Shown here: in pieces, positions 10,096 to 63,735 of the stretch
Layout of the letters: each line of letters opens with the position of its first letter
How positions within the stretch are numbered: the stretch's first letter is position 1
Assembly: GCA_012845835.1 (NCBI GenBank)
Contig: JABAKD010000010.1
Location: 16,469,355 to 16,533,354 of the forward strand
Reading direction: 5' to 3'
DNA: 64,000 nt
Source of the DNA: Undaria pinnatifida
Lineage: Eukaryota; Sar; Phaeophyceae; Laminariales; Alariaceae
Notes under the pieces: model-generated
Told to the model about the DNA's origin: nothing
What the model saw: only the letters and a program-made list of their open reading frames with translations
Database searches by the model: none
Program-made: the position numbers and the translations under genes

Positions 10096-10416
10096 CTATA
10101 AACGCCTATCGGCAGAACTATCTCTTCCGGCGGGCAGACCGCTCCTAGGCTCCGCAGCGCTGTTTACAAGGAGATCTGGCGGCACTGCCCCGTACGTTTC
10201 AGGCATGTACCGCTCCTGTACGCTCCCGACTTTCTCGAACATCGGCTCGTGGGTGTCGCTAAAAGCCGTGCGGAAGAGGTTGCTGACGTTTCCCCCCGCC
10301 CCGCCACCGCCTCCCCCGGCAGAACTCCCGCCGCCGATCGCGGTGTCGTGAGCCCCGAGGATGTACCCATTGCACTTGTCGATCTGCGACAAGACGCGGC
10401 CGACAGTTTCCGCGTC
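10096..10416 (-). CDS. GPN2: GPN-loop GTPase 2 (GPN2), exon 6 and stop
   Basis: Encodes the last 106 residues: DAETVGRVLSQIDKCNGYIL, then a Gly/Ser-rich insert, then MFEKVGSVQERYMPETYGAV and a short tail. The IDK-NGY block and the VQE(K/R)Y block are the C-terminal landmarks of GPN2 (human VDKANGYCF and IQEKYL). The acceptor is CGCAG, phase 0, matching exon 5. A decayed copy of this exon start lies 205 bp upstream in the intron, at 10540-10621. Confidence 0.93.
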   Translation of the reverse strand, partial: DAETVGRVLSQIDKCNGYILGAHDTAIGGGSSAGGGGGGAGGNVSNLFRTAFSDTHEPMFEKVGSVQERYMPETYGAVPPDLLVNSAAEPRSGLPAGRDSSADRRL

Positions 10417-10539
10417 CTGCGTGGAAAAAAAACGGGTAAAAAGCGTGCACAAGGAGTAAAGCTAATCCCTTCACAATTCCGCCCATATTTTCAGGGGTGA
10501 ACTACTTGGAATTAGTGTGAGGTAGTGTTCCAGGAGTAA

Positions 10540-10621
10540 GCGTGCGATGTCGTGAGCCTGGAGGATGTACTCGTTGCATTTGTCGATCTCGAGATAAGAC
10601 ACGGCCGACGGTTTCCGCGTC
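10540..10621 (-). pseudogene. Echo of GPN2 exon 6 start
   Basis: Repeats the acceptor and first 80 bases or so of exon 6 (gcag|gacgcggaaac, then the 'gacaaatgcaacgagtacat' block). It differs at many positions and in frame, and lacks the rest of the exon. The flanking 70 bp also repeat, so the unit is a roughly 205-bp tandem duplication spanning the intron-exon boundary. Confidence 0.85.
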
Positions 10622-10844
10622 CTGCCGGAAACAAAAACGAGTATGTCCAAAGCGGGCGCAGTGGGAGCAAGTTTACCCCTATACGGCTGCGATCACTTTT
10701 TTGTGGGAGATCTACACGGAAACACACTATTCGCAAGCAATCGAAGGGTTACAGTCACAGCAGTGTTCGAATACTTGTCATAAAATCATGCATACTACCT
10801 GGAGTAATTTTTCGAAGGTACACGACGCGAAAGCGGACCAGCAC

Positions 10845-11195
10845 CTGAACGTTAAGAGGCAAGAAGGAGACCAGCCCATAGCTATCGACCACATCGCAGA
10901 TCTCCTCCGTCATCTTAGCGAACCGCTTACTAATTCTTCGCCGACCACCGTCGCCCCCACTTCCCCGTCTGTCAGACCCGCCCTCGCCCCCTTCCTTTTC
11001 CCGTGGCTCCCCGTCGCCTTGGCTATCGGGTCGTCCCCGATCCCCTGCCTGATCTTCCCCCTCCTCTTGTTGATCTTCCTCCTCGCCCATGTTTGGCGGC
11101 GCGTCGAGATAAGCTAAGAGCTGGCGCATGTCTTGGCAGTCTGTGAAGAAGTCGAGGTTGAAAGGAAGGGGGCCCATTTGCTCCACTAGGTCCAC
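10845..11195 (-). CDS. GPN2: GPN-loop GTPase 2 (GPN2), exon 5
   Basis: A 117-codon exon. VDLVEQMGPLPFNLDFFTDC (the D completes the N/SKxD guanine-specificity motif that starts in exon 4) and DMRQLLAYLD are followed by a low-complexity insert of about 55 residues rich in E, D, G and R. Family sequence returns with FAKMTEEICDVVDSYGLVSF and LPLNVQ. The insert is not in human GPN2 and probably forms a disordered surface loop. Acceptor AACAG and donor CAG|GTGCTG are canonical; both ends are phase 0. Confidence 0.94.
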
Positions 11196-11214
11196 CTGTT
11201 GGTGGTGTACGTAG

Positions 11215-11370
11215 GAGAGCGGGAGGGGGGGGGAAGTACTCATTTTCTGCTTGCCTCAGTCATTTGACCATTGACCACGCTTGCTTTTCGAGACGGAGGG
11301 AGCACCTTTTCTACTCCTAAAAGAAGCATCTCCAACATATGGGCGCTCGTTACGTTTCTTCCATGCATAA
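11215..11370 (+). repeat. Dispersed repeat family D
   Basis: About 150 bp shared with 46540-46690, 59575-59720 and, in reverse, 61320-61510. Landmarks are 'gtactcatttgttgcttgcc', 'catttgaccattgaccacgc', 'gagacggagcac', 'ttcctactcc' and 'tgggcgct(t/c)gttacg'. Copies start next to a poly-G run. Confidence 0.85.
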
Positions 11371-11439
11371 TATGAAGAAAAACAACTTGTCTTAGGGCCA
11401 GTTTTAACGATTAAAAAAAATCCAATTAGGAAAAGTATA

Positions 11440-12224
11440 CAGGTTGGTTCACGTTAAAACCCCCAAAATTTACTCCCCGGCGAATGTCCACGCCGTTTTT
11501 TCGATTCAAACGGTGAAATTTTGCACACGTCTTCTGTGTGCCATTGCGAAGACCTCACCTGTTGTTCTTTTTTATTTTTATTTTTCGTCAGTTAAGTTTC
11601 TTTTTGAAAATGTGGCCCACCATGGACCAATTTATTTGGTCGAAAAAAAAAAAACGGAGGTCGGGCCTTTGGATGGGCATGTAGAACACGTGTGCAAAAT
11701 TTCAGGGTCTATCTCTCAAAAGCGGCGTGGACATTTGTACTTTTGTGCGTAAAAATGAGTAAGACAGGTTATTCCCTTCCAATTTCTTGGTTCTAGTGTA
11801 TGATCCAGTTTTTTTGCTAGATTCTGCTTAATGTTGAACACAGGCAGACCAGATCTTCGATTTTTTGCGAAAAAATTTGTACCGGCACGCCCTGGAGTAC
11901 CACCAACCGGTTCGTGCAAAATGCAGCACATTTTTTTTCTCGCTTCCGCTTGGAAAATGCCTGTGCAAAATGCGGCACAGTTTTTTTTCTCGCCTCCGCT
12001 TGGAAAAAGCCTGAGTATTATTGAAGAATATGAAGGCCTGTCATTGGTCGATACGAGTCTTGCTCCTAGAGACAGCCCGAGGTCGTTAAAAAAAAAACTG
12101 GCCATGTTGCCCTCTTCCTTTGGTCATGGTGGTCAGTACGATACCAAATATTCACCCTTTGACGGGATATTGCGAGCGGCCTTCGCCGGGGAGATAATTT
12201 GTTTTTCTTACGTGAACCAGCCTG
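11440..12224. mobile_element. Tc1/mariner-like TIR element, non-autonomous
   Basis: The ends are inverted repeats, CAGGTTGGTTCACGT on the left and its near complement on the right, flanked by TA on both sides, the target choice of the Tc1/mariner superfamily. Similarity of the inverted ends continues inward for about 90 bp (a shared 'ctccccggcgaa' block). The interior holds a 50-bp tandem pair at about 11914-12012 and no transposase. It is 785 bp long. Confidence 0.75.
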
Positions 12225-12888
12225 TAATCCAACTTGGATTTAGTTTCTAGAAAAAAACAGATTTGTCTCCTATCGAGGAAAGGGCGCATTGTTCTTCAAA
12301 TATGCAGGAAATTGGAATAACGCAGCAACTCACACAACGCCCTGCCGACGAACACCGACGAGAGTGGACAAGAGCGACGGCTTCTGTCGTCTCGTGCGCG
12401 CCGCCGCCAGCCTCTCCTTTCTTTTGGCGGCCCAGGGCGAGAAGCCGTCACCCTCAGGGTCTCTTGGGTGGGCGCAGGGGGCGTCAAAATGCCGCGCGCA
12501 GAACAGCGACGGCGATGAAGCTATCGGACTCTTAAGCGAATACTCGTGTTTTTGGCTCGTTGGATCGGTTTTCGTGGGGCTTGGGAAAAATTGGGATCGC
12601 GGCCGCTTTGATCTTTTTAGAGTCGCCATCGCCGGGGTGCAATGTTCTATGGGCTGTCGACGTAGGCGTGGCTGCTGCCCTTGTTGCCCTGGTCGCCTCT
12701 CGTTGAGATTCGCGTTTCATCGCCTAGATCGTGGTCATCAACGCGGCCAAAAATCGCCCCAGGCAGCCCCGGGTGTGTTGTCCCACCGCGAACGTACCCC
12801 TTCAAGTTGGGCCAACTCCCAAATTGGATTTGGATTCCCCGCCCAACAAAAAGCATTTCAAGATATTTCAACGTTTTCGTTCAATTCA

Positions 12889-13370
12889 AATTTCAGTTAC
12901 CCCGAAAAATCGGACTACTTAATGATGCTGGGGTGTCTAGACCAATCAACCCCATATTCGACTCGATTTTTTTTCCAAATTGCATTTTTTTTTTAATAAT
13001 CATTAAAAACTGGCTCTTATCGGCGTACCTACTGTTACGTAGGAGGGTCGCAGCAGATGACGCGTGATGCTACGACAGAGGTATACCGTTTTTTGGCGAA
13101 ATCACTTTCTGAATGCTTGGGCTCTCAAATTTCAGTTACCCTGAAAAATCGGACTACTTAATGATGCTCGGGTGTCTAGACCAATCAACCCCATATTCGA
13201 CTTGACATTTTTTCCAAATTGCATTTTTTTTTCTAATAATCATTAAAAACTGGCTCTTATCGGTGTACCTACTGTTACGTAGGAGGGTCGCAGCAGATGA
13301 CGCGTGATGCTACGACAGAGGTATACCGTTTTTTGGCGAAATCACTTTCTGAATGCTCGGGCTCCGCATC
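12889..13370 (+). repeat. Recent 240-bp tandem duplication
   Basis: Two adjacent copies, 12889-13129 and 13130-13370, are nearly identical over about 240 bp; only a handful of differences are seen. This is the freshest tandem duplication in the window. Confidence 0.95.
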
Positions 13371-17045: not shown

Positions 17046-17425
17046 GTGACGTGGCCCGCATGTGGTTCCAGTGTTATATGACGTATGACAAGGGGATACA
17101 CTAAAAACATCCCTACAGTCTAATGTAAACCCCTGTAAAAACTCTTAACCCCATCGCCGCCCCTACAACATTTTACCTACATACTCGGGTATAGGAAGGT
17201 TAACTCCTGTCCATCTTGTTCCCCCCCAAAAAAAACGAAGAAACGAAAGATTGGTCGACCCTAAAACTTTCAACACAAAAATCCCCGGATTCTATACTTT
17301 ATTCTAGATAATAATATAGTGATGGTGAGGGTCAGGTCGACCGTACATATCCACATAAAACAATATTTATCATTTGTGGTATAAATACCAAAAATATTGC
17401 CAACATTTCATCGTGAATACGATGT

Positions 17426-17497
17426 GGACCCATGGCGCAATGGCAACGCGTCAGATTCCAGTCCTGAAGATTGGGAGTTCGAATCTCCCTGGGTTCA
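17426..17497 (+). tRNA. tRNA-Trp (anticodon CCA)
   Basis: A 72-nt cloverleaf. The 5' strand GGACCCA pairs with TGGGTTC (one G-U pair), discriminator A. The D arm is GCGC/ACGC with an AATGG loop. The anticodon loop TTCCAGT places CCA at positions 34-36, and the T arm GGGAG-TTCGAAT-CTCCC is perfect. Length and spacing match plant-type tRNA-Trp. The C at position 39 leaves one mismatch at the base of the anticodon stem. It sits in GPN2 intron 4 on the opposite strand, with no intron of its own, and a T-run follows. Confidence 0.93.
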
Positions 17498-17505
17498 TTT
17501 TTTTT
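17498..17505 (+). terminator. RNA polymerase III terminator of tRNA-Trp
   Basis: Uninterrupted T-run directly after the discriminator base of the tRNA-Trp gene, as expected for pol III termination. Confidence 0.85.
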
Positions 17506-26690: not shown

Positions 26691-26831
26691 CTGCCCGGGG
26701 AAGTCAAAAATGAGGTATTTTTTGTTGAGCCCTTCCAGCCTTTCCATCAACCAGTCCACGTTCTTCTCCAGGTACTCGAGGCAGTAAACCATGCCCCCGT
26801 TCGGACCCAGGTCGAACTCATCCATCACGGT
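26691..26831 (-). CDS. GPN2: GPN-loop GTPase 2 (GPN2), exon 2, with the GPN loop
   Basis: A 47-codon exon: TVMDEFDLGPNGGMVYCLEY, LEKNVDWLMERLEGLNKKYL, IFDFPGQ. It holds the family-defining Gly-Pro-Asn loop that reaches across the dimer interface to the partner's nucleotide, and most of the G3 DxPGQ motif. Acceptor CTCAG, donor CAG|GTGTGG, phase 0 at both ends. Three decayed copies of its acceptor and first half lie upstream in intron 1 (starts at 27083, 27309, 27538). Confidence 0.96.
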
Positions 26832-29759: not shown

Positions 29760-30200
29760 ACAGACAGCAAATTTGCCTTGACAACAAACTACCACTACTG
29801 CTGTGTACCAGGTACTTATTACCAGGTACCTGGTAGGTTTTAGTGTTGAACACTCGACCGTACAATGCTGAACAGCGCACGTGTTCACTTGCTTGCTATG
29901 TCTCCTGACACAGTTGCTGCTGGGGAGGAAAGGTTAGGGCTTCGCGGAGGCGCCAACAAATTTGCCTTGACGTGACACCGAAGTACTACTGCTGTACACC
30001 AAATTACTAATCATACGAGTATCTCTGGTAGGTTTTAGTGTCATTCGGCCTACTCTGTTCGTTGTAAATGATGACTGAGTGGCTCAGTGGTTTATTGTTC
30101 ATAAAGAGGACCTACAGCCCTTGACAGCGCAAGTTTTCCCTTGCTTGACATGTCTCGTGACATATTTGCTGCTCGGGAGGAAGGGTCGGGGTTTCGAGGA
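29760..30200 (+). repeat. Two-copy duplication with an exon edge echo
   Basis: Blocks 'aaatttgccttgac', 'actactgctgt', 'ggtaggttttagtgt', 'acagcgca' and 'tgacatgtctcgtgacatat' recur in the same order about 210-250 bp apart. The second copy runs into the candidate exon at 30118; the first (around 29870-29955) is a decayed echo of it. Confidence 0.75.
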
Positions 30201-30398
30201 GGAGCAGGCTTTAGCGGGAGAAGCGGGGGCGACGAGACTAGTCGTGGGCAGGCAACAGACGAAGAGAAGAGCGCAACCGGCCCTGGGCCTCCTCTTCCTC
30301 TGAGCGCCCGCGGATTGCCTCCTCAAGAAAGGCCGCAAAAGAAACTCACTCCGTTGGAGGCGAGACGGGCACGTATAGAGCAGCAGAAGCGAGAAGAG
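30118..30398 (+). CDS. Candidate exon 2 of the B9D2-containing gene
   Basis: After a CTACAG acceptor the frame reads LDSASFPLLDMSRDIFAARE, EGSGFRGGAGFSGRSGGDET, a Pro-rich stretch, then KKLTPLEARRARIEQQKREE, a basic, probably helical end. It closes at GAG|GTGGGC in phase 0. Not recognised. The ATG within (30150) could alternatively be a start codon. An echo of its edge lies upstream, a pattern seen at certain exons here, which supports its being a real exon. Confidence 0.5.
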
Positions 30399-33126
30399 GT
30401 GGGCTGTCGCGGTCGAAAAAGCGATATCCACACTCCTTACGTACGTACAGTGTTAATAGAAGTACCTGAGAAGCTACCACTATGTCTTTTTCCATTTTTG
30501 CTCTCAAGGAATTAGGTTTTCCCCTAGTCTGATACCAGGTATTATACTTCCTTTCCCGCAGAGCTGTAATGAGGGACAAACGAAAGCAAAATTTGAGTAA
30601 CGTATACGTGGTATCATACAGTGAACCTTGCATGATAGACAGAATCTACGAGACACTGATGACACTGCTCCTTCTGAAGCACACCGCACAATACACAAAT
30701 AGTCCCCGCCAGCCGTGTAGGTACACACTCGCTGAGTGCCCAACCACCCTATGAGTACACGTTTATTGTCTCGGGGGCTGCGGGTATGGCGGCCAAAGAC
30801 GCGATCAGTTCGATTATGCCGTGCAACTTGTTAATAGGTTGGAGTATATAATTGACACAAAATGTACCACTTAATAGCCGAGCAGCCCGCGTTGCTCCAC
30901 ATGGCCAACGGTGTAACAGTACAGGATACCGAATGATAAACAAGGTACTCACGCCTGCTACGATAGGGTTGGCACTTTATGGCTGCAGTTTTGGGGGTCC
31001 CCTCCGATAAGGCGGTCTTGAGAAAGAGCGGTATCCCGATATAAGGCGGTCACGGTCGCGTGGCGCGGCTGGGGAGTTGCACTAAAGTACTCATGGCCTA
31101 GAATGAATGAGGCGGCTTGCCTCTATAAGGCGGTCATATTGCAGATGGCGGCACACCACCGCCTTATTGGGGGGATGTAGAAACCAAAATCTGAAAAACA
31201 GGGATCCTCAACAAAAAAAAGGCTACTTGTACGACAGGTGTAGAACTTTTGGGCTGAAATATTGTCAGAATTTGTAGGGCTCCTCAACTCAAAACCGTCG
31301 GAGAGGTGTAGTTTTATTGTTTTTCGATGCGACTTTTTTTTTGGGTACAACACCTAGCACATGGATGACATTTGTGCGTCGGGTTGCGCTTTCGATTCGC
31401 TCAAAACATTGTAGAGCTCCTCAAGAGATGAGTCTCAGGGGGAAAGAAAAAAAGACGCTGCACGTCTGCCGTGCATAGCATGTGTCTAATAAGAAGCGCA
31501 AGGCTGAGATTAACAGAAAAAAAAAAAACTCCGGGAGCTGTTATGCTTACGTCCGTGTGTGACGTACTCTCTCCCAAATCACAAAAGCTCGGCCTGGGAC
31601 AGCACGTCCGCCGACATTTTTTGTCCGCGCTTATTTTTCCGTATGAACTCGTAAAATGGTTCATTACAGTCGCTGCCGCTAACCCCCGCACCCTTCGTGT
31701 GTGTGGATGTTTGTTTGCTGGTGGTGCGAAAAAACTGAGCGTAGAGTGGGTGCATCTGTCTGCAGACGGATGCAAGGCGCATGCCCAGACGGGTGCAAGG
31801 CGCATGTCTTCCGATAGTCACGGAGCCTTGTATCATAGCTGAGTCCCTATCCACCCCGTGTGTGCACGCATAAGCTGCTACCGCATAACCCCCAACACCT
31901 TCGCGTGTGAATTTCACAAGTGTTTTGTTGCGATGAAAGACTGAGCGTACATCGGGGGCTTTGTTATTAACGAGACGCTGCAGCCGGATGCATCGCGCAT
32001 GCCATCCGATTGTCACGGATCCGTATGTCATAGCTGACTCCCTAGCCGCCCCGTTTGTGCACGTTTTTGCTGCTGCTGCATACCCCCCAACACCTTCGTG
32101 TGTACATTTTCTTTTTCCGTGTTCTCGTGCGGAAAGACTGAGCGTACAGCGGGAGCACATAATAACAACGAGACGCTGTAGACGGGTACATCACGCATGT
32201 CCTCCGATAGTCACGGAGTTGGATATTATAGCTGCGCTCCTGACCATCCCGTTTATTCACGCCTCAGCTGCTACTTTGTAACCCCAACACCTTCGTTATG
32301 TATATTTTCATATTCGTTTGCTTGTGCGGAAAGACTGAACGTACAGTCGGGGCTCTGGAGCGACGAGACTCTGCAGACATGTCTTCCGATAGTCACGGAT
32401 CCATATATCATAGCTCAGTATCTGACCACCCCGTTTATTCACGCTTCAGCTGCTACCGCACAACCCCCAACGCCTTCGTGTTCACATTTTCATCTTTGTT
32501 TGCCGGAGTTGCGAAAAGGCTAAGCGCACAGCCGGAGCGTCTTTGAGTGCCGCGACGCTGCAGACGGATGCGTCGCGCATGCCATCCCATTTTCACGGGC
32601 CCGTGAATCATAGCTGAGTCCCTGACCACCGCCTATGTGCACGCCTATGCTGCTACCGCATAGTCCCCAACACGTTCGTGTGTACATTTTCATATTGTTT
32701 GCGGGTGTTGTGAAACGACTGAGCGCACAGCCGGGGACCTGTTGGTTGCGAGACGCCGCAGCCGGATGCATCGCGCATGTCTTCCGATAGTCACGATGTC
32801 ATGATGCCGTATTTCATAGCTGAGTCCCGAACCACTCCTCGAGCTCACGCTTCCGCACAACCCCCAACACCTCCGTGTGCACGTGGATCCATCTTCATCC
32901 GCTGTTGCTTCAAAACGACTGAGAGTACAGCCGAAGATTCTTTGAGTATTGAGATGCTGCAGCCGAACGCATCGCGAATGTCATTCGATTGCCTCGGGAG
33001 CCGTATACCATGTATAGCTGAATCCCTAACCCCCGCCACCTTCGTGTGTACGTTTTCGTTTGTTTATGCTTGTGCGGAAAGGCTGAGCGTACGGTTGGAA
33101 CATATAAAAACAACGACACGCTACAG
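30399..33126 (+). other. Intron or intergenic, with a 31.0-31.2 kb element and the echo array
   Basis: Between 31005 and 31172 the word 'ataaggcggtc' recurs three times and its complement 'accgccttatt' closes the block, so a small TIR element is possible. From about 31640 the exon-edge array begins. Nothing else is recognised in 30400-31000. Confidence 0.55.
31640..33126 (+). repeat. Seven-copy echo array of the exon starting at 33127
   Basis: Units of about 165-220 bp each contain 'accgcataacccccaacac', 'ttcgtgtgtacattttc', 'actgagcgtacag', then a (c/g)tgcag or ctgtag acceptor, 'acggatgcatcgcgcatg' and 'tcttccgatagtcacgga'. Acceptor-equivalent points are at about 31765, 31984, 32182, 32377, 32564, 32762 and 32963, followed by the true exon at 33127. 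The AG is kept in every copy. Confidence 0.9.
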
Positions 33127-33884
33127 ACAGATGCATCGCACATGTCATCCGATAGCCGCGAAGCCAGGGAAAGACCAGAAACAACGTCCGAAAGGAGAAG
33201 TGACCATCCCGCGCGATCGAGCAAGGCAGGACCTGGCGGTGACGATGGCCGTTCCAGCGGCGGATATTCTGACGGTTCGCGCCGAGAGCCTGGGAGCAAT
33301 CGTACCGCTGCGAGGAAAGGAAACAACGCTCGTCGTGGTAAATCAGATCTCACGAACGAGGACGAGAAAGGGGTGCCCATAGACCTTGGGGGGGAGAACA
33401 AAGAAGGGGCGCGCGACCAGAGCGATGGCGAAAACGCGGAGCAGGACCCGCTTATTCCCGACACGGCTGCTGCAGGCAGAACACCCGGAGGCGATGCAGC
33501 ACCAGAGAGTGCGGGCGCTGACGCTGGGATCGCAAGAGGGGAAAGCGGTGAACCCGCGGGGAACAAGGACGGCGGCCACGAAAGTCCGGCGGAGGGCGGG
33601 TTCAAGGGCATGCGCAGTCGCATGAAAAAAGCTGGACAAGGTCTGATGAACAAGAGCTCGTCATTTCGACGGGCGTCATCTGAGGAGAAACTTCGTGGTG
33701 CACGATCGAAAAACACGGACGATGACCAACCGGAGGGCGGAGGGGGCTACAACATGGAGACCGCGCCGGACACCGCGGGCGTAGTAGACAGTGCCCGCGA
33801 GGCAGGTGGAAGCACCAACAACGTGAATCGAGGCAACAGGGGTGATCTGCCGCCACGGAACCAAGAAGACTCGGACATGGAAAG
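33127..33884 (+). CDS. Candidate exon 3, long disordered Ser/Gly/Asp-rich segment
   Basis: Reads TDASHMSSDSREARERPETT and continues for about 250 codons rich in S, G, D, E, R and A without predicted secondary structure; GFKGMRSRMKKAGQGLMNKS and SSFRRASSEEKLRGARSK form a basic patch near residues 160-200. Composition changes sharply to non-coding after 33884, where AAAG|GTGCGC is a plausible donor (phase 2). If the first Met (33142) were the start, the seven upstream echoes would hold ATGs too; the conserved AG before each copy argues that this is an internal exon. Function unknown. Confidence 0.6.
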
Positions 33885-33897: not shown

Positions 33898-35662
33898 AGG
33901 TGTTGTCGCCGTGGGCACCTTAAAACGCTCTAGGGGGACGACTGCGCCTTTTAATCCTTTGGTGCCTAGGTCTAGCCTAGTCACCGAAAAATTGGCAAGT
34001 GCAGCTATGCCATCCTTCCAGAAAAACCGTGCGACAACAGCCGTACCGTCATGCCGCGCACGTGTCGTACATAAATTTCCTCCCCTTGACACTTTGAAGG
34101 TGGCCCCTATTTCAGCAGCCAGGGCTCCTTCCGTGTGGGCTACGGTGGAGGCCTCATTTTTGGGGCCTCTTTCTGCAGGGTCTTAGGGTTGCTCGCGCGA
34201 GTGACCCCCCCTGCTCCTTTGCGGCCTCGATTTTTTTCTTTTCTTCTTATTTTTGTTTTGGCGATAGGAAACCGCAATGGAATGGTTAGCTACACCGCGC
34301 CAAAACAAAGCGCCTAGATCGTCTTTTTTTTTTTTCATTGAGATACAGAGAAGTCACTCGGGGGAGGGGGCTCAAGCGCAGTATTGAAAAAAAAATGGTG
34401 GTATGATACCATAGCCGTGGTCGTGGGCGATGCTGAAATCGTCACTTCCTTGTTTTTTTTTTTTCCCAAAAGGGGTTACTCCAATTTTCTTACCTAAAGA
34501 GTTCCGAAAAGGGCGACCCTGCTTTTCCTACTGGGTTGTTTTTCAGAGTACTACTGGACTATTTATTGCTTATGTAAGCCTCGCCATACTGTTTGATACC
34601 AATCGCAAATATCCCTCACCGTTTTTACTTTAAAATGCATAACATCAGCCGCCGCCGAGACTTAAAGTCAACTGCCTGACTGAAGGCTTTGTTTCTTTGA
34701 CGGACCAATCCTGTTCCAGCCACGACAGCGTGATGTCTCCGATGATGAGTGAGGCAGAGGAGGAGGACGACCGACCCCAAAATCGCGAACCCCACTTTCT
34801 TACTGTTTTTGTCCCTTACCTATAGCATCACCATACCGCATCTAACCGAGGATATATTCCTATGAAAGCAACATAGAACAAGCCGCCGACGTAAAGTCTG
34901 GGCGTGGGTATAAGGGACTGTTGCAAGGGTGTGAATATAAGGGACATTTCAAGACCGGCCGGAACGGGGCGATATGGGTGAATTCGAAGCACTAAAAATT
35001 GTCAGTATGCATCTGGAGGGGGGACGGTGAATACGTATAACCTCCGGGGTGGCCAGGAGATGCCTGGAGACCATGCCTGTTTTTTTCTTTTCACTTTTCT
35101 CACATTGCTTTTCCATGAGGCGTGTTTTTTCTTTTCGTTTTCGTTAAACTAGAGTCACCAAGACATCTGGCGCAAGCCGATCACCAAGAAGACACCGTCG
35201 GTCGCCTGCTGCTGGTAGTGTTTCCGCACACCCGAGACTTGCTTTCGGGAACACGAAAGGGCGGCAGCAGCTTCCTACAGGACGCCTTGGCCAAGTTTGC
35301 CCTTGGTACTGCCACCGAGAAGATGCTCGATTAGCCGGCGCACCTGGTTTTCATTCGGATTATTGCGACCTTCTCGGGGGCACTCCCAGAAACTGGCATC
35401 TCCAACACAAGACGGGAAGGTCTTCAACCGGTCATTCTTGCGCGGAAGCACTATTTGCTGGTTCGTGGGGTGCCGCGAGAAAGTGTGTGTCTTTGCGTTT
35501 GTGAAAACAAAAAAACGTACTTGAGAGCCAGTGAGATTACCACAAATTCGATGTAAAAAACGGGGTTAGAAAAGCATTTAATCACAAGTTACACAGCGAA
35601 ACCTCCACACTTTCCTTATATTCACACCCAAAATCTGGTTCCCTGATCGCCTTGTTCCACAG
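33898..35662 (+). other. Intron-like sequence with echo and family F repeat
   Basis: Holds family F repeat (about 34130-34320, with gctcgcgcgagtgacc), an echo of the next exon at 34710-34790, and an open stretch at 35153-35336 after a TAG acceptor that reads ESPRHLAQADHQEDTVGRLL and stops. The last was not recognised and is not in phase with the other exons. Confidence 0.5.
34710..34790 (+). pseudogene. Echo of the exon at 35663
   Basis: Repeats the acceptor zone (ctgttccag, cgacag) and the start of the exon: SVMSPMMSEAEEEDDRP against SVMSPMISDAEEEDDHG. It lies about 950 bp upstream and is followed by unrelated sequence. Confidence 0.85.
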
Positions 35663-35831
35663 CGACGGCAGTGTTATGTCTCCCATGATTAGCGATGCGG
35701 AGGAGGAGGATGATCACGGTGGTGGCCATGGGGGTAGCGATGCCGAGCACAAGGGTGGCACGGGGCGGAACAAGAAAAAATGGCGGCGAAAAAAAGGCGC
35801 GGCCGAAGCAACGGCAGACGGCAATACAGAG
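35663..35831 (+). CDS. Candidate exon 4, acidic then basic segment
   Basis: After TTCCACAG one base completes a Ser codon, then DGSVMSPMISDAEEEDDHGG, GHGGSDAEHKGGTGRNKKKW, RRKKGAAEATADGNTE. Alternating acidic and basic clusters suggest a disordered linker. It ends where GAG|GCAAGT would be a GC-type donor in phase 0; no GT donor fits as well. Phase 0 matches the B9D2 exon at 40408, which has no start codon of its own. Confidence 0.55.
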
Positions 35832-37819: not shown

Positions 37820-38077
37820 CTGACAAAACCACGTCCGGCGATTTTTTTTTCGTGAAGCGTAGCTAACTATCCCTTTTCGTACTAATATCGAGATTGTTTT
37901 GAACATAACAGCAAGAAAGAAAGACTGTGACCGCAAGGAACAGAGGGGTAACTCGCGCGAGTGACACCAAGCCACTGAAACAAAAGTGCCCAAAAGGGGG
38001 TAAAACAACATAACACCCCTACCGTACTTTAGCCTTGGTGTTTCATGGTCGACCACTCATAACCATTCCCCGCTTGT

Positions 38078-38360
38078 CGCCCCGGTGGCGTATCAGGTTA
38101 TCCTCAAGCCTGGTATAGGTCATTTTCGTGAGTTCGAATCCCCCCGAGTGCATGCTCGTATGAGTTCGTGGGGACTTTTTCTTGTGCACAAATTGACTTG
38201 CGGAAAGCGCGAGAGCGTGAGCTAGCAACACTCGATGAAAAATCGACGAGCAGTGGGATTACTCAACCCTATGCGCGATAAAAATTGAAGGCAAGAACCG
38301 GGCGGGAGAAGGGGCGACACCTGTGACCACGGCTTGTCCAGAAGCTGGAAAGCAGAAGTG
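38078..38360 (+). mobile_element. tRNA-derived SINE, full-length
   Basis: The head resembles a tRNA gene: box A TGGCGTATCAGG and box B AGTTCGAATCC at the usual spacing, with cgccccgg at the start. The body holds 'ggggactttttcttgtgcac', 'gcggaaagcgcgagagcgtg', 'aatcgacgagcagtgggatt' and the tail 'cctgtgaccacggcttgtcc'. A second copy at 58089 is almost identical, so the family was recently active. A truncated copy is at 22430. Confidence 0.9.
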
Positions 38361-38689
38361 TAAAAAAACACACACACATTCCCAGCAAAGACCCAGGCTA
38401 GTGCAAGGGTGGGTCACTTTTGGGGCCTTCGTTTGCCTTATTTTTCAGTGGCTCGGTGTCGATTCGCGCAAATAACCCCCCCCTCTGTTCCTTTTTTGCG
38501 GTCTTCAGCGTTCGTGTGGCTAAACTTCGCGATTTGAATCCACTACGGAACGGGGAAAGCTACGCTGCGCCTTAAGAGTAACCCAAGTTTACGTTTTTGT
38601 CCGTGAGGTGCAGAGCCAGTCGTGCGAGTGGTGAAAGCCTCGTAGCGAAAATGGGGACATCCCCCCCCGCTACCTTAGCCTTGTTCGAA

Positions 38690-40407: not shown

Positions 40408-40611
40408 GTGCACTTCATTGGGGAACTCTCCGGGGCGGAGGGATTTGGGTCGGGCATTTCGTGTCGGTTCCGCGTGGAGGGAGGTCGGCACTGGACCTGC
40501 CTGGCGGGTCTCGAAGAGGGCCAGACGCACGTGATCCACGCCGACTACGGGGAGACGTTCGCACCCTGGAACCATCCGATCGACCTCCACTACACCACCA
40601 AAAGCATACAG
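40408..40611 (+). CDS. B9D2: B9 domain-containing protein 2 (B9D2), first recognised exon
   Basis: Encodes VHFIGELSGAEGFGSGISCR, FRVEGGRHWTCLAGLEEGQT, HVIHADYGETFAPWNHPIDL, HYTTKSIQ. Human B9D2 has VHVIGQIIGASGF, then EGQTQVDTP and WSHPIDLHFATKGLQ at the same places. B9D2 is part of the B9/MKS complex of the ciliary transition zone. The frame has no ATG between the preceding stop and Val, and AG stands just before GTG, so this exon is spliced to something upstream. Donor CAG|GTAAGC, phase 0. Confidence 0.95.
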
Positions 40612-40689
40612 GTAAGCGCAGTTGGGACTGCGGTTTAAGACATACCTGGCACTTCGTATCAATTTAAAAATAAACAAGTTCTCAAGAGA

Positions 40690-40795
40690 GACCAAACGCA
40701 CGTGATTCTCTCAGCGGGACTGCGGGGAGCCGTCGTTCGCACCCTGGAATCACCCCATAGGCCTCCACTACACCACCAAAAGCATACGGCAGTAG
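40690..40795 (+). pseudogene. Echo of the B9D2 exon 40408-40611 (3' half)
   Basis: Copies the exon's second half: 'gaccaaacgcacgtgat', 'cgttcgcaccctggaa', 'cctccactacaccaccaaaa' and gcatac, now with frame damage and gcatacg|gca where the donor should be. It lies 80 bp downstream of the true exon, as expected for a tandem duplication across the exon-donor boundary. Confidence 0.9.
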
Positions 40796-40917
40796 CAGCG
40801 GGGGGGGGGGGGCACTGTTTCAAGAGAGGGTTGTGCAAGGCGAAGCAAATCACACCTGAAGAATACGATTTTCTCTTGTTCCGGTGTAGGCGACACAGAC
40901 ATAATGATGACCTCTCT

Positions 40918-41020: not shown

Positions 41021-41699
41021 CCCGTACTCTCTGAAGTCGATGTATCTTGAATCGAAGCCCCCATTGCTGTAGACACTAACGCGTTCGCTACCGCTGGGTA
41101 TGGTGCACGAGATCGGGAGGAAGGGGGATAACTAGTCGGGGCGTGTGCAGTGCTTGTTGTCAGTGGCAAGGCCAAGACACTCTACATTCCAGGTTGAAGT
41201 AAGTGAATTCGTGGTCCACAAAAAAATGATGATATGTATGATAGGAACATAGCCGTTAGCGCGGGGTCGTGGGCAAAATATATAAAAATCATGCACACAA
41301 ATTTACTTTCAATTTTAACGCGCAGGAAGCACTCGCCATTCGCTCCCTGAGGGCTGCTGTAGGCGCCCGAAAATTCCTTTTGTTGGCATCCGTCACGGTT
41401 GTCTGAGCAGCAGCACGAGGAGGAGGGGGGGGACAGGAGGCCCGAAAAACTGACCAGCAGGGTACATAGGAAGCGCGCAAGAAGAAAAACGCCCGCTGCA
41501 AGACAAAGCGAACCCGACCACGTTACTAACCCTTTATATGTACACCCACCGTTTTAGAGACACGCTGCTTGAAGTTAGTAGGGCGCAAAAAAATCTATAG
41601 TAATATGATTACAGCAGTTACGTGAAGATGGCAGGTCAGGTTTTGCCTACTACACATGATCACCCCTCTCCCGCCGACATTCCACAGCACATTGAACTC

Positions 41700-42537
41700 C
41701 ACTCCATACCCCACACCTCCCCCTTCATGCAGGGCTGGCCTCGATTTTTCTTGCAAGTGTTTTGCCATTCCCTCCCCCCCCCCCCCCCCAACAGGCATCC
41801 CGCTTAATATTGAACCCTACCCCATGCCCTTCGTACAGGGATGGTCTCGACTGATGTTGCAAGTGTAGCAGTTACATGATCACCCTTTCCCCCCCTTACC
41901 GATATCTCGAACCACATTGAACTGCACTCCACACCTGCCCCTTTCATGCAGGACTGGCCTCGATTGCGGTTGCAAGTGTGGCAGTTGGATGACCCCCCCC
42001 CACCCCCCCAGCGATGTCCCGTACCACATTGAACTCCGTTCCCCAACTCCCTGTTCATGCGTGGCTGACCTCGATTGATGTTGCGAGCGTGGCAGTTGCA
42101 TGGTTACCCTTCCCCCTCTACCGATATCCCGAACCACACTGAACTCCACCCCGTTGCGCCTAGATTGATGTTGCAAGTGTGGCAGCTGCCTGATTACCCC
42201 CCTCTTCCATAAACCGCCTTAATGTGTACCCCCCCCCCCGCCACCCCCCACCGACTTCCCGCTCTACAATGAACTCCACATCTCCCTCTTCATGCAAGGC
42301 TGGCCTCGATTGACGTTGCAAGCGTGGAATTTGCGTCATAACCCTTCCCCGTCGACATGCCGCACCGTGTTGAACTCCAGCCCCCCCCTTGTTACAGGGC
42401 TGGCCCCGATTGATGTTGTTAATGTGGAAGTTGGGCTTTGGTCATACGACGACGGCCATGCATGAACTGAGTACACCCCCCGCCCATCGGTATTCCGCAC
42501 CACATTGAACTCCGCCCACACCTCCCTCTTCATCTAG
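41700..42537 (+). repeat. Seven-copy echo array upstream of B9D2 exon 42538
   Basis: Units of about 95-145 bp contain 'ccgcaccacattgaactcc', a pyrimidine-rich stretch, (c/t)atgcag or tacag, then 'ggctggcctcgattgatgtt' and 'gcaagtgtggcagttg'. Exon-equivalent starts are at about 41733, 41839, 41952, 42063, 42150, 42298 and 42398; the true exon starts at 42538. Several echoes keep AG and an in-frame GWPRLMLQVWQL-like peptide; none has the rest of the exon or a donor. Confidence 0.95.
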
Positions 42538-42684
42538 GGTTGGCCTCGATTAATGTTACAAGTGTGGCAGCTAGATGTGCACGGACGCAACGTTCTCCGA
42601 GGATACGGATTCCGCCACCTCCCGTCCACCCCGGGCTTCTCCGAGGTGTCGGTGCCGTGTTGGAGACCCACCGGCACCATGCAG
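42538..42684 (+). CDS. B9D2: B9D2, middle exon
   Basis: Encodes GWPRLMLQVWQLDVHGRNVL, RGYGFRHLPSTPGFSEVSVP, CWRPTGTMQ (49 codons). Human B9D2 has GWPRLHFQVWSQDSFGR, GYGFCHVPSSPGTH and TWRPLGSW. This is the second half of the C2-like B9 fold. Acceptor TCTAG, donor CAG|GTTAGT, phase 0 at both ends. Seven partial copies of its start precede it. Confidence 0.96.
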
Positions 42685-57617: not shown

Positions 57618-57684
57618 GGCTCGCATCAACAAGCAAGGGTAACAGCTTGGAAATGGTCAAATCGCGTTTCCCCTCGGAAAAAGA
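57618..57684 (+). pseudogene. Echo of CtpA exon 3, copy 1
   Basis: Matches the exon over 'caagggtaac', 'cttggaaatggtcaaatcgc' and 'cctcggaaa' with several changes; it corresponds to GNDWEAVKSRLSSE. A ctcgctcgtttgctcg context precedes it, as at the true exon. Confidence 0.85.
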
Positions 57685-57833
57685 AAATCGGACTCAAGAT
57701 GAAATTCATCAAGCAAGCACTGGCCGATGCTGAAACCGTCATTTTTGTTGGTTGTTGTCTTTGTCGACACTTTTTTCCTCTCAAGTGCTATAACTTATCT
57801 CTGTCGCTCGCTTGACTGCTGACGCACGCCAAG

Positions 57834-57889
57834 ACTCTGTTTCGATCGCACCCAGAAGGGGAAACAACTGGGTGACGAATTGAATCCAG
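57834..57889 (+). pseudogene. Echo of CtpA exon 3, copy 2
   Basis: 'tttcgatcgcacccagaagg', then aacaactgggtgacg, corresponds to the FDRAHKGNDW region. Short and shifted in frame; it runs directly into the hairpin at 57891. Confidence 0.75.
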
Positions 57890-57890: not shown

Positions 57891-57984
57891 GTTGAACGGA
57901 TCAATACACTGGAAACAAGGCGGCAGGCAGGCCAATCGCATGCCGCTCGCCCGAAGTTGCTTCCAGTGTGTTGATACGTTGAAC
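57891..57984 (+). repeat. 94-nt hairpin
   Basis: The arms gttgaacggatcaatacact ggaa and its complement at 57961-57984 pair with about three mismatches in 24. Inside, aggcggca pairs with tgccgctc, giving a long stem with a small loop. On the sense strand of the CtpA intron it is shaped like a small-RNA precursor, with no proof of expression. Confidence 0.7.
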
Positions 57985-58088
57985 GCTAGACTCACTTTGT
58001 CAACGCCCCAACCAAAAGGACTGGTCGATGCTGGAACTGTTTCCTTTTCAGGTCGTAGCAGAGTCCTATAGCTTTTAAAAGGCTAGAT

Positions 58089-58363
58089 CGCCCCGGTGGC
58101 GTATCAGGTTGTCCTCGAGCCTGGTATAGGTCAGTTTCGTGAGTTCGAATCCCCCCGAGTGCAAACTCGTATAAATTCGTGGGGACTTTTTCTTGTGCAC
58201 AAATTGACTTGCGGAAAGCGCGAGAGCGTGAGTTAGCAACACTCAATGAAAAATCGACGAGCAGTGGGATTGCTGAACCCTACGCGCGATAAAAATTGAA
58301 GGCAAGAACCGGGGGGAAGAAGGGACGACACCTGTGACCACGGCTTGTCCAGAAGCTGGAAAG
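58089..58363 (+). mobile_element. tRNA-derived SINE, full-length
   Basis: Nearly identical to 38078-38360 over the whole length, from cgccccggtggcgtatcagg (box A) through gagttcgaatcc (box B) to 'acggcttgtccagaagctgg'. It is inserted in CtpA intron 2, between exon 3 echoes. Confidence 0.92.
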
Positions 58364-58520
58364 TAGATGTGTGTGAAAAAAAACAAATAAATATATATAT
58401 ATAACCTTTTTCACTTCTGTTAAAATGACCCTACGCTAATTTCAAGTGGTTCATTCCTCAAAAAAAGTTGGTGCTGTTCTGAAGGGGTTGACCTGAACAA
58501 TCCGCTCCTTAGACTTGTGC

Positions 58521-58585
58521 AGGTTTTGTTTCGATCGGACTCGACGCAGGGGTAACAATTGGGAAGCGATCAAGTCGCGACTTTG
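58521..58585 (+). pseudogene. Echo of CtpA exon 3, copy 3
   Basis: A gcag acceptor-like end is followed by 'gttttgtttcgatcggactc', then 'ggggtaacaattgggaagcg' and atcaagtcgcgact, close to the true exon (FDRA-KGNDWEAVKSRL). It is the best preserved echo of this exon but breaks off after about 65 bases. Confidence 0.88.
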
Positions 58586-59024
58586 TTCGAGTCATCACGC
58601 TATTAGTAGGGGTGCAGCAGATTCTAAAAAGTTTCTGAGCTCCTAACCAATAGCTTACTCGAAACATGACTTCGAAGGCATTCATCCGATTGCGCAACCC
58701 GACCAACAGTTCTGTTCGCTACCGTAGTCCTAAAACAAATATGCTCGTACGATTATCACACTAATCGATAATTCCACATTGTCAACCGATCAGAAAAAAA
58801 CGTTTGGTCCACAACGTTCGATTCCTGCCGTCGGATGTCTCCATCGCAAGTCGCTTCGGGTGTATTAAAAAGACTTCGGACACAAACTTCATCACCCTGC
58901 CACCCCCTAACCACGCGCTCGCCGATGATGCTGAAACCGTCGTTTTTTCGTCGCCACTTTTTTTCCGTCTCTTAAAGTCGTCAAAGAGTTAAGCTTATCC
59001 CGCTCCCTTGCTCGCTCGCTTGCC

Positions 59025-59052: not shown

Positions 59053-59073
59053 TGCTCGCTGATTCGGAGGTAG

Positions 59074-59214
59074 ATTTTACTTCGATCGCGCCCACAAGGG
59101 TAACGACTGGGAAGCGGTCAAATCGCGACTCTCCTCGGAAATTGCTTCCGGTAAGAAGAGCGAAAACGCGGCGACGAAGGAGATGCTGAAGCTCCTTAAG
59201 GACAAGTACACGCG
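59074..59214 (+). CDS. CtpA: CtpA-like protease, exon 3
   Basis: One base completes Gln, then FYFDRAHKGNDWEAVKSRLS, SEIASGKKSENAATKEMLKL, LKDKYT and two bases of Arg. This is the N-terminal helical region of S41 peptidases (YFLDRTFNG-DW---R and EML--L-D-YTR in cyanobacterial CtpA). Acceptor GGTAG, donor CG|GTGAGA, phase 2 at the end. Confidence 0.95.
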
Positions 59215-60305: not shown

Positions 60306-60550
60306 CCGTACGGTACACCTCCAGAACGCCTCCTCGGTTGTGCTCCTCTCTGTGTGCGCGTGCGAACATAAACTAAGGGGTCCAGTCTTGCCACTGCCGT
60401 CTCCATTCGCGCTCCGTACTTCGAGCACTAGTGCAGCAACACAAGCCTAGCGAAAAAATCACCCACCGACCCTCCCTCCCTCGCCGCCCCTTCTATCTTT
60501 CGTCTCTTCTCTCTTCCTATCGCTCGATTCCCCTGCGTTCGTGGGCGTAG

Positions 60551-60638
60551 GTTGATAGGACCCGAGGTCTACGATATGTTGTCCAAGTACGACCTCATAG
60601 GTGTGGGGGTTATGCTTTCACCCAACCCTCTCGGGCAG
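60551..60638 (+). CDS. CtpA: CtpA-like protease, exon 4
   Basis: One base completes Arg, then LIGPEVYDMLSKYDLIGVGV, MLSPNPLGQ. It opens the PDZ domain: the GVG(V/L)M(L/I) carboxylate-binding loop is intact. In family members TRFLDPEQF---TKYDLTGVGL stands here. Acceptor GCGTAG, donor CAG|GTAGGT, phase 0. It has no start codon and is short, so it is easy to miss. Confidence 0.94.
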
Positions 60639-60650
60639 GTAGGTGTTGCA

Positions 60651-60770
60651 GGGTAGGGTAGGGTAGGGTAGAGTACGATAGGGTCGGGTAGGGTCGGGTC
60701 GGGTCGGGTCGGGTCGGGTCGGGTCGGGTCGGGTCGGGTCGGGTCGGGTCGGGTCGGGTCGGGTAGGGTG
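60651..60770 (+). repeat. (GGGTC)n / (GGGTA)n array
   Basis: About 24 pentamer units, starting 12 bp after the exon 4 donor. Regular GGG spacing makes an intronic G-quadruplex likely in DNA and pre-mRNA. GGGTA units resemble telomere-type repeats but the GGGTC core does not. Confidence 0.95.
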
Positions 60771-61112
60771 GAGTAGGGTACGGTAGGGCAGGGTACGGTA
60801 TGGTATAGTGTAGTGTGGTGTGGTGCGTTGTGTTGTGTTGTGTTGTGGTGTGGTGTGGTGTAGTGTGGTGTGGTATAGTATGACCCGGTGCGGCATTGTA
60901 TCGTATTCATTGTGTTGAGTTGTATTGTATAGTGTCGCTTTTAGGCAAGTCCTCTCCACTGCTCTTCACCAAATGTGAACCCTGTGCTATCATTAGGGCT
61001 AAAACCATAAGCCCACGTCCTTCTACTAACGTGCTACCTACCGCCTTTTCGCGCTATTCCCGCTGCTGCACGTTTCCGCTAATGCGCTTGCTTTATATTT
61101 TTGCTGCTGCAG

Positions 61113-61256
61113 CTCGTCGTCGCCTCCCCGCCTAAGGCCGACAGCCAGGCGGACAAATTGGGCGTGAAGAAAGGCGACCTTATTTTGTCGATCAACGGTC
61201 TTGATGCGGTGAAGATGGACTCTTTTGAGGTTACCGACTACCTCGCCAAGTACCAG
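61113..61256 (+). CDS. CtpA: CtpA-like protease, exon 5 (PDZ domain)
   Basis: 48 codons: LVVASPPKADSQADKLGVKK, GDLILSINGLDAVKMDSFEV, TDYLAKYQ. A-KLGV--GD-IL-I-G is the hallmark of the PDZ domain in S41 proteases, which recognises the C-terminus of the substrate. Acceptor CTGCAG; donor CAG|GTTCGT is somewhat weak. Phase 0 at both ends. Confidence 0.96.
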
Positions 61257-62553
61257 GTTCGTACGATCTGTATTTAGTTTGTTTCGCTACCCCCCTTGCT
61301 GGCTTGCTATCCTAGGACATAAATGGTGGCCACAGACGGCCAAACAGGAATGAAATAAAATAAGCCAAAACACTTCTGGAATATATGGAAGAAACGAAAC
61401 GGGCTCCCAAAATGTTGGGCGTGTCTCTAGTAGGAGTAGGAACGGTGCTCCGTGTCTAAGGGCATGCGTGGTCAATGGTGTAATGAAATGGCAAGCAACA
61501 ATGAGTACCCCCCCCCCCCGCCGACTTGCTGGCGAGTCTGCGTATTCGTGCGTGTTCTGCTCTGTATTGTCGTCGTTTTTGTCTCCTCTAACTTGGTTGT
61601 CTCATGTTATTGTTTTCCTCTTGGTTTGTCGTCCCTTTGGTTTCTGGTGCAAATTGTACAACGTGTCATAATGCAACGTATCATACGGATATGATACCAG
61701 GTACGCACGTACGCTGATTTCTGTTTGCGCTTTTATTTCTTTTCTGAAGCGTACGATTTGCTTGAATCATTTTGTTCGTATTATTTCGTTTTTTTTCTGT
61801 TTTTTCCTGCGAGGTAATGTTCTACTCCAGAGTGGTTGATTGAAGCCTGTCCTGTGACCATGGCCTAGATCATGGCGACGTAAAAAAGTAGTGTGAGGGC
61901 AACAATAACGATAACAACAGCAGCAGCAACACACGGGCTAGACCAATGCCAGAAGCGTATAAGATGACACAAGTACATGGAATACTTTATACCAGTGAGT
62001 CATCCCTCTATAGTGCGGTAGGGGTTGCAGTTTATGGGCCAAAAAAAGGTATACCTTCTGACCGGTTGAGCTCCTCAAGCGTTGAACTATCGGTTAGTAT
62101 GACATTTTTTACGACTATTTTTGTTTTAGGACTAGGGCATACTAATAACAAGTGTTGGTCGGGTTGGGCTAACGAATGTCTTCGAAGTAATGTTTCGGGG
62201 AGATAGTGAGATATTGAGCTCCTCGTGTTGGGAGCTCGGAAACTTCTTAGAATCTGCTGCGCGCCTGGCGTGGGATGACTCCAGTACTCGGTGTGATATC
62301 CTCTCTATTAATAGCAGTAAACGACTTGCCCTATCTGATGCTTTGATTTCTTAATAATTTTCTCCTCGTTCTTTGCTGAGACCGGTCACCGGTTAACCTC
62401 GCCAAGGACCGCTTAGGTGCGTGTAGACGGGCTATACCAAACAATCTCAAGAGACTTACAATATGATACCAGTATATGGAACACTTGAAAGTACCTGTTG
62501 CCGTCGCATGGATGCATTCTCTCTCCGCGATTGTACGCACATCTACACTTTAG
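61257..62553 (+). other. CtpA intron 5
   Basis: Holds a reverse family D copy (61320-61510) and a family B copy (about 61700-61930, core 'gaagcctgtcctgtgacca') followed by CAG-rich sequence. Nothing else was recognised. Confidence 0.8.
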
Positions 62554-62667
62554 GGCAAGACGGTGACCTTCGAGATTCGGGGGCCCGAAGACGGGTCGGA
62601 CACAAGGAAGGTCGAGCTCGACAGAACTTTCCCGGCCACGGAGAACGCTGTGCTCTACGGGATCAAG
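62554..62667 (+). CDS. CtpA: CtpA-like protease, exon 6
   Basis: 38 codons: GKTVTFEIRGPEDGSDTRKV, ELDRTFPATENAVLYGIK, the segment between the PDZ domain and the protease core (family G--V-L-I-R---). Acceptor CTTTAG. The frame and similarity end at AAG|GCAAGA, a GC donor with otherwise ideal flanks; no GT fits nearby. Phase 0. Confidence 0.93.
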
Positions 62668-63117
62668 GCAAGATGCGAGGGGCTGGGGGGGGCTGGGGGA
62701 GAAGGAGGAAGGGCGGGGGGGGGGAGGGGCGAGGGGGAAGGGCGTTCCGCATTGTATGGTCGGTGGTACACGAATATTTTCGCCCCGTCAGATTGCAGTA
62801 TTTCTATTTGTTTCGCTCGCACTAGCTTCAAAGTTGAGAGAGTTCCCCCTTGTGGCGGTCAACCGTTGCCCCGACACAGGATAAGCCTTTTCCCCCCGGG
62901 CATATAGCTCAGTTGATATCTCCTTCCCCCCCCCCCCCGGCCCGCTGTCCCCGCCCCGTCCCCGTCCCCTCCCCCTACTTACGCAAACTGTCTGGTATTA
63001 TTCCCACAAAAAACTGCGCGCATTCCGCGAGCTAACCCCCCACCCCCCGCAATGTACCCTCGCCTCCCCGCCCAATGCCGTCCACCCAAAACCAAAACGT
63101 GCAAACTCCGAATCCAG
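62668..63117 (+). other. CtpA intron 6, GC-AG type
   Basis: Begins GCAAGA and contains a G-rich run (62680-62745) and C-rich runs (62880-62970), which are complementary in composition and could pair. The 3' end is TCCAG. Confidence 0.75.
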
Positions 63118-63324
63118 GACCAAGGAAAGCACAAGATAGGTTACGCCCGGCTGCGCGACTTCAATTCCGTAGTGGCGAAGAACCTTCGGGAGGCCCTTGT
63201 AGAGATGAAGGGGCAAGGGGCGGACGAGTTTGTGCTCGACTTGAGGGGGAACGGTGGCGGTGCTTTCCAGAGCGCGCTTGGCGTCGCCGGCTTATTTATG
63301 GACGCGCAGCCCATCACCTACGTC
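63118..63324 (+). CDS. CtpA: CtpA-like protease, exon 7 (start of catalytic core), gene incomplete
   Basis: 69 codons: DQGKHKIGYARLRDFNSVVA, KNLREALVEMKGQGADEFVL, DLRGNGGGAFQSALGVAGLF, MDAQPITYV. IGY-RL--F, then (V)LDLR-N-GG(G) is the conserved core of peptidase family S41A. The Ser and Lys of the catalytic dyad lie further on, beyond the right edge. The plastid enzyme cuts the C-terminal extension of the photosystem II D1 precursor in the thylakoid lumen. The exons here give about 384 residues including the leader. Donor GTC|GTGAGT. Confidence 0.96.
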
Positions 63325-63384
63325 GTGAGTTGGGGGAGGGGTGGAGGAGGGGGAGGATGGGGGAGGTGTGTGTGGGGTACTGAT

Positions 63385-63510
63385 TTTCGACATGGCCGCA
63401 GTCGTAAGATCATAGACTCTTGCATGCCTTCCATTCCGGGTTTTTATCAACCACTCAGATATTGCTTGTACCAGGCAGGACGCGCCGTGAGGTATGCGAG
63501 GGGTTGGGAC
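63385..63510 (+). repeat. Dispersed repeat family C
   Basis: 'acatggccgcagtcgtaaga', then 'ccattccgggtttttatcaa' and 'gcttgtaccaggcaggacgc' follow the family C order with notable divergence. Confidence 0.75.
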
Positions 63511-63539
63511 CGGGGGAGAGTATACGTTACACAAATAAA

Positions 63540-63600
63540 TGCGGGGCAACCTGAGCCAAATGCGGTGTAATCTGAGCCAATGGCATTTCAACACATGTAG
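63540..63600 (-). repeat. Reverse copy of the 42730-42850 repeat
   Basis: Read on the minus strand, 'acatgtgttgaaatgccatt' is followed by 'ggctcagattacaccgcatt' and 'tggctcaggttgccccgc', as at 42726-42815. Confidence 0.8.
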
Positions 63601-63659
63601 AAAGTCTGTTATGGGGTAATGCCTGACAGTGGGGGGTGGGGGGGAGCGATGCTCGTCTT

Positions 63660-63735
63660 GAGAAGTAATGGTGGAGTCGCTGTTCAGAGCGCGCTTGACG
63701 TAACTGGCCTGTTTATGGACGCCTAACACCTCACT
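63660..63735 (+). pseudogene. Echo of CtpA exon 7 end
   Basis: 'ggtggagtcgctgttcagag', 'cgcgcttgacgtaactggcc' and 'tgtttatggacgcc' copy the last third of exon 7 (GG-AFQSALGVAGLFMDA). The donor equivalent reads 'catcgtgactagg', so GTGAGT has become GTGACT. It lies about 400 bp downstream of the true exon end, with a G-run after it as after the true donor. Confidence 0.9.

Follow-up and report, generated by a model that had tools for sequence, protein, structure and literature searches.

Why do introns in a stretch of the Undaria pinnatifida genome carry copies of the edges of the exons that they flank? The stretch, called the window from here on, comprises 64,000 nucleotides (nt) (assembly GCA_012845835.1, contig JABAKD010000010.1, positions 16,469,355-16,533,354; all coordinates below are those of the window), and its spliced genes show that we are dealing with eukaryotic DNA. 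The initial annotation had named nine exon boundaries with decayed tandem copies and had concluded that short segments are duplicated at a high rate and that introns grow outward from exon edges. We confirm that these exon-edge copies, which we call echoes, are real. They lie on the intron side and in direct orientation, they are dead, and they sit in a background of tandem duplication. The pattern is mostly explained by neutral tandem duplication together with slower decay beside exons. The earlier interpretation is partly supported.

For the detection of the echoes, a probe of 100 nt (75 exonic and 25 intronic) was placed at each of 33 boundaries, 16 acceptors and 17 donors, of four modelled genes: GPN2, an unnamed gene X, B9D2 and CtpA. 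Each probe was aligned in both orientations to the 1.5 kb on either side, with distal 1.5-kb segments as the control. A strong nearby direct copy was found at nine of the 33 boundaries with scores of 32-64.5, always on the intron side and never inverted; the best distal segment usually reached 13-17 and in one case 26. These are exactly the nine boundaries that had been named, with no others among the 33; the donor of GPN2 exon 1, for example, gave no match. Seven of the 16 acceptors have their copies upstream and two of the 17 donors have theirs downstream, so that all nine follow the geometry that had been predicted. The echoed exons and their copies are the following.

26691-26831, minus strand: GPN2 exon 2, acceptor edge echoed upstream
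27105-27026 and 27333-27254 (clear), 27553-27524 (weak), minus strand: echoes of the GPN2 exon 2 acceptor
10097-10416, minus strand: GPN2 exon 6, acceptor edge echoed
10544-10721, minus strand: echo of the GPN2 exon 6 acceptor, frameshifted
30118-30398, plus strand: gene X exon B, acceptor echoed
29839-29953, plus strand: echo of the X exon B acceptor
33127-33884, plus strand: gene X exon C, acceptor echoed
31667-33126, plus strand: X exon C array, units of ~198 bp, seven copies of the acceptor edge
35663-35831, plus strand: gene X exon D, acceptor echoed; GC donor, end uncertain
34712-34770, plus strand: echo of the X exon D acceptor
40408-40611, plus strand: B9D2 exon 2, donor edge echoed downstream
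40680-40803, plus strand: echo of the B9D2 exon 2 donor, frameshifted
42538-42684, plus strand: B9D2 exon 3, acceptor edge echoed
41661-42537, plus strand: B9D2 exon 3 array, units of about 110-111 bp, seven copies of the acceptor edge
59074-59214, plus strand: CtpA exon 3, acceptor edge echoed
57634-57680, 57809-57872 and 58521-58589, with a weak fourth at 57906-57963, plus strand: echoes of CtpA exon 3
63118-63324, plus strand: CtpA exon 7, donor edge echoed downstream
63631-63764, plus strand: echo of the CtpA exon 7 donor, with stops and a frameshift

When every match within 2 kb that scored above the 98th percentile of the distal scores was counted as a copy, the acceptors gave three copies at GPN2 exon 2, two at GPN2 exon 6 (one weak), one at X 30118, seven at X 33127, one at X 35663, seven at B9D2 42538 and four at CtpA exon 3 (one weak), and the donors of B9D2 exon 2 and CtpA exon 7 gave one each. 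The numbers reported before (3, 1, 1, 7, 1, 7 and at least 3 at the acceptors, 1 and 1 at the donors) agree with ours within one weak copy at GPN2 exon 6 and at CtpA exon 3. Nor did we see a strong copy on the exon side of any of the 33 boundaries, where the top score was 16.5 (inverted copies reached at most 15), which bears out the observation that no functional exon is duplicated in its interior. Four weak scores that we did not count beat all of their own distal segments, namely the intron-side scores of the CtpA exon 4 donor (18.0) and exon 5 donor (16.0) and the exon-side scores of GPN2 exon 6 (16.5) and the CtpA exon 2 donor (14.5). The copies do contain coding sequence, as remnants of whole-exon duplications (former alternative exons) would. 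The aligned copy, however, has one exon edge and ends well within the exon, with far edges looked for only through the 33 boundary probes, and we regard such an origin as barely credible.

The copies are old and decayed. Exon and copy differ in 13-36% of their exonic columns, and several copies carry frameshifts or stops. The differences at codon positions 1, 2 and 3 number 56, 67 and 101 over 401, 396 and 393 sites in 24 of the 27 copies (three weak copies were left out), counts that are not independent because array copies share their history. The third-position share of 45% compares with ~44% estimated for a neutral copy beside an exon that changes at one tenth of the rate at positions 1 and 2, and the codon pattern is as expected if dead copies lie beside a constrained exon. 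Additionally, the exonic columns are more alike than the intronic ones in six of the eight alignments that have both kinds (the X exon C alignment has no exonic columns and stands outside this comparison). The exonic and intronic identities are 76 and 66% at GPN2 exon 2, 87 and 65% at GPN2 exon 6, 78 and 72% at X exon B, 86.5 and 60.6% at the B9D2 donor, 77.5 and 74.1% at B9D2 exon 3 and, nearly tied, 64.3 and 63.9% at CtpA exon 3. Since the window was flagged by a reader in search of patterns, chance or an assembly artefact has to be considered as well. The boundary scores are far above those of the distal segments, though, and the exonic divergence is unlike that of a mis-assembly, so that this explanation is highly improbable.

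Local tandem duplication is common throughout the window. Repeat pairs within 1.5 kb of each other are direct in 59 cases and inverted in 3, and the direct pairs fall into 25 clusters; the echoed edges account for 9 of these, other places for 16. With tiled probes (score of at least 28 and at least 4 above the 24 distal scores; coatomer exons counted as noncoding), a direct local copy was found in noncoding sequence for 72 of 581 far and 96 of 574 near probes; at edges it was found for 15 of 75 probes and in exon interiors for 4 of 48. Inverted local copies were found for 4.5-4.7% of the noncoding probes and for none at edges or in exons. The claim of a high local rate of short duplication is supported, with 16 of the 25 clusters and the 72 far noncoding probes lying away from the edges. 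Nine young duplications were picked by hand; seven consist of adjacent head-to-tail units of 22-239 bp with a junction homology of 0-2 bp (the right side judged by eye), and the copies of the other two are non-adjacent.

The echoes account for only a part of the introns. Their hand-set footprints cover 3,967 of the 30,377 bases of 15 introns (CtpA intron 7, X intron D and the coatomer introns were left out of this count), or 21% without the 11.5-kb GPN2 intron, and eight of the 15 have no echo footprint. Because duplications away from exons and dispersed repeats are also found in introns, a general rule of outward intron growth from exon edges claims too much.

We consider it probable that the echoes are neutral short tandem duplications across splice sites, made conspicuous by slower decay beside exons. 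Short head-to-tail duplications (tens to a few hundred bp) would often be retained through much of the noncoding sequence. If such a duplication spans a splice site, the gene would survive only if the copy that adjoins the rest of the exon gets used, and the other would be stranded in the intron and decay there as a pseudo-exon edge. At exon edges, where the exon half is compared with constrained sequence, old duplications would then be recognisable for longer than elsewhere. A possible origin of the duplications is fill-in at staggered breaks with end joining, of which the young duplications, with their near-zero junction homology, are suggestive; the old echoes are too decayed for the same test.

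The age of the copies is in line with such a detection bias. A best identity of at least 89% is reached by nine of the 16 non-edge clusters and by none of the nine edge clusters, which indicates that the edge copies are older. Young duplications show no excess at edges, with one observed against 0.78 expected at scores of at least 55 and none against 0.54 at scores of at least 65, and the edge excess is confined to scores of 28-65. A dead copy diverges from a constrained exon more slowly than two dead copies do from each other, and in a simulation it remained visible 1.47-fold longer.

How far does this bias carry us? For this question all boundaries were slid together along the window and the intron-side matches were recounted, the resulting probabilities being post hoc since the pattern had been picked by a reader. 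For the 33 boundaries, nine matches were observed against a mean of 3.1, and at least nine were reached in 0 of 200 shifts at a threshold of 28 and in 1 of 200 at 24. The set was extended to 38 boundaries (18 acceptors and 20 donors) with those of a held-out gene, coatomer subunit alpha, which has echoes at none of the five boundaries placed here (two acceptors, three donors). Here nine matches compare with 3.5 expected and were reached by 3 of 1017 shifts at a threshold of 28, 15 of 1017 at 24 and none at 32. On the exon side we found none against 3.5 expected, a count equally low in 41 of the 1017 shifts. By boundary type, seven of the 18 acceptors match where 1.64 are expected, a number that 0 of 1017 shifts reach at threshold 28 and 1 of 1017 at 24, and two of the 20 donors match where 1.85 are expected. 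Donors are thus at background and acceptors above it.

Several points weigh against an explanation by neutral duplication and slower decay. First, the 1.47-fold gain raises the expected count to ~4.6 of 33 and the excess persists, with post hoc binomial probabilities of 0.03 for at least nine of 33 and 0.004 for at least seven acceptors; with the lower background of 9% outside the echo regions and the coatomer boundaries included, these become 0.006 overall and 0.0006 for acceptors. Second, the difference between 7 of 16 acceptors and 2 of 17 donors is not predicted by it (Fisher 0.057). Third, the intronic columns are the more alike ones in two of the eight alignments, X exon D (ten intronic columns) and CtpA exon 7 (a G-run). 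Finally, the X exon D echo (34722-34770) differs from its exon at no first, one second and eight third codon positions; this is coding-like, as though the copy had been coding after the duplication, and is not taken as significant among 24 comparisons.

Differences of the latter kind would also fit a use of the echoes as alternative or decoy acceptors under selection. The signals kept in the arrays give a mixed picture of conserved splicing. The acceptor AG is retained in all seven copies of the X exon C array but in just four of the seven B9D2 copies, and all seven of the latter have a TGAAC, perhaps a branch point, no more than 60 bases upstream of the junction. Given the stops and frameshifts and a pooled codon pattern like that of dead copies, we hold such use to be quite improbable.

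The acceptor excess, which the initial annotation did not point out, is not predicted by neutrality alone, and a detection gain of about 1.5-fold falls short of it, so that a part of it is unexplained. It could mean that the duplication mechanism itself favours acceptors, for example through a coupling to transcription or splicing; the 3' splice site of the transcribed gene might form a structure prone to breaks, or a splicing intermediate might be copied. The shift counts for acceptors and donors speak for such a bias, as does the behaviour of acceptor-like sites. Sixty-six such decoys and 132 random points were drawn outside the echo regions. At threshold 28 an upstream copy was found at 0 of 66 decoys and a downstream copy at 3%, compared with 6.1% and 4.5% of the random points, and at threshold 24 one of the 66 decoys had an upstream copy. 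With decoys so devoid of upstream copies, a polypyrimidine hotspot that stems from sequence alone finds no support. On the other hand, the numbers are small, as the Fisher value indicates, the single window was chosen as striking, and the held-out coatomer alpha gene contributes none of two acceptors. Copying that stopped at a branch point near the acceptor is also at odds with units that extend 95-246 bases into the intron (GPN2 exon 2, GPN2 exon 6, X exon B). We regard an acceptor-biased mechanism as unlikely. Equally doubtful is the wider proposal that short tandem duplication is targeted to the 3' splice sites of active genes in this lineage, with introns lengthening preferentially at their acceptor ends and the stranded copies forming a readable record of that growth. 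For now, the excess at acceptors, seen in a small sample, is a loose end beside the neutral explanation that we favour.

The same geometry has already been published in at least one case. In a potato RdRp gene, a recent tandem duplication across an intron-exon boundary created a new intron (Ma, Lan and Niu 2016, PMC4974935). As there, the end of an intron and the start of the next exon are duplicated in tandem at seven acceptors here; the potato case as described is a recent event that made a new intron, whereas the Undaria echoes are dead, diverged upstream copies in several genes and in up to seven copies. The AGGT model (PMC3443670), in which a new intron arises by tandem genomic duplication from an exon segment with AGGT, shares the short intragenic tandem duplication that touches splice signals. 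Its new intron has the two copies of one exonic AGGT segment as splice sites, while in our case an existing intron is lengthened. Intron gain of this kind does not describe the window, where the alignments show echoes that reproduce a pre-existing acceptor or donor with intron sequence and where the exons join in frame without them. Small tandem duplications from fill-in and end joining (PMC8355091) and short tandem or paired duplications in primates (PMC2654908) are similar as a general mutation class of head-to-tail short duplications. The young duplications of the window resemble those of the former study; the portions of both reports considered here make no link to exon edges, and several Undaria units exceed 100 bp. 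Intronic minisatellites are similar in that two of the nine edges are multi-copy arrays and different in that the last unit runs into the exon and each of the remaining seven edges has one to four copies. Introner elements, near-identical introns dispersed over many genes, do not fit, as the distal segments, all from this window, give the nine edge probes top scores of no more than 14-26, and neither do duplicated alternative exons, no exon having both tested boundaries matching. In the open-access literature, judged by titles and the beginnings of abstracts and with most subscription papers outside its scope, we found no genome-wide description of exon-edge echoes.

The exons were placed by tblastn with human GPN2 and B9D2 sequences, by Pfam, by PDB matches (CtpA) and by eye. 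The genes are as follows.

~28.97 to 10.1 kb, minus strand: GPN2, six exons
29.24-35.83 kb, plus strand: gene X, end of exon D uncertain
plus strand: B9D2, three exons placed, first exon not found
plus strand: CtpA, exons 2-7 (exon 1 and the beginning of exon 2 unplaced), gene extends past the window end
652-3314, minus strand: coatomer subunit alpha, 5' part, three exons; WD40 Pfam models, named by PDB search, absent from the initial annotation

The exons of GPN2, X, B9D2 and CtpA (2-7) join in frame without the echoes, and no extra intron is required by the gene models. Echoes had been ascribed to all multi-exon genes with a complete exon set. This holds only loosely; no first exon was found for B9D2 and CtpA, CtpA leaves the window, X has an uncertain end, and coatomer alpha, which is partly in the window, has no echo at the five boundaries placed. 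A Pfam scan of gene X gave no match, and another in the window gave no gene match but a single weak match under its cut-off. Four further scans (plus strand 44-54 kb, minus strand 46-56 kb, both strands 1-10 kb) matched only on the minus strand at 1-10 kb, with the WD40 models; the scans left out 10-28, 38-39 and 43.5-44 kb of the plus strand and 22-28, 38-46 and 56-64 kb of the minus strand. Three of the 20 placed donors have GC instead of GT, those of CtpA exon 6 (62668), coatomer alpha exon 3 (651) and X exon D (35832), the last two less certain; this exceeds the usual share of GC donors, which is roughly 1%. A tRNA-Trp (cca) is predicted on the plus strand at 17425-17498, within the long GPN2 intron 4. 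Dispersed repeat families with copies 90-95% alike, some of them inverted, lie at 38077-38374 and 58088-58385, and at 6593, 13887, 16035 and 16254. Exact scans of viral contigs with repeat-derived patterns gave no match, GPN2 exon 1 found only short P-loop matches at two loci of these contigs, and neither B9D2, searched in genome and viral contigs, nor GPN2, searched in viral contigs, gave a relative.

In summary, the origin of intron sequence is a long-standing question, and decay has left most introns unable to answer it. At an exon edge one of the copies stays recognisable, so that echoes allow earlier duplications within introns to be dated and oriented. Should the acceptor bias extend across a genome, a mutational process tied to splicing or transcription would be indicated; without such a bias, the echoes would still serve as a simple clock of neutral intron growth. 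Any annotated genome can provide either outcome through self-alignment.

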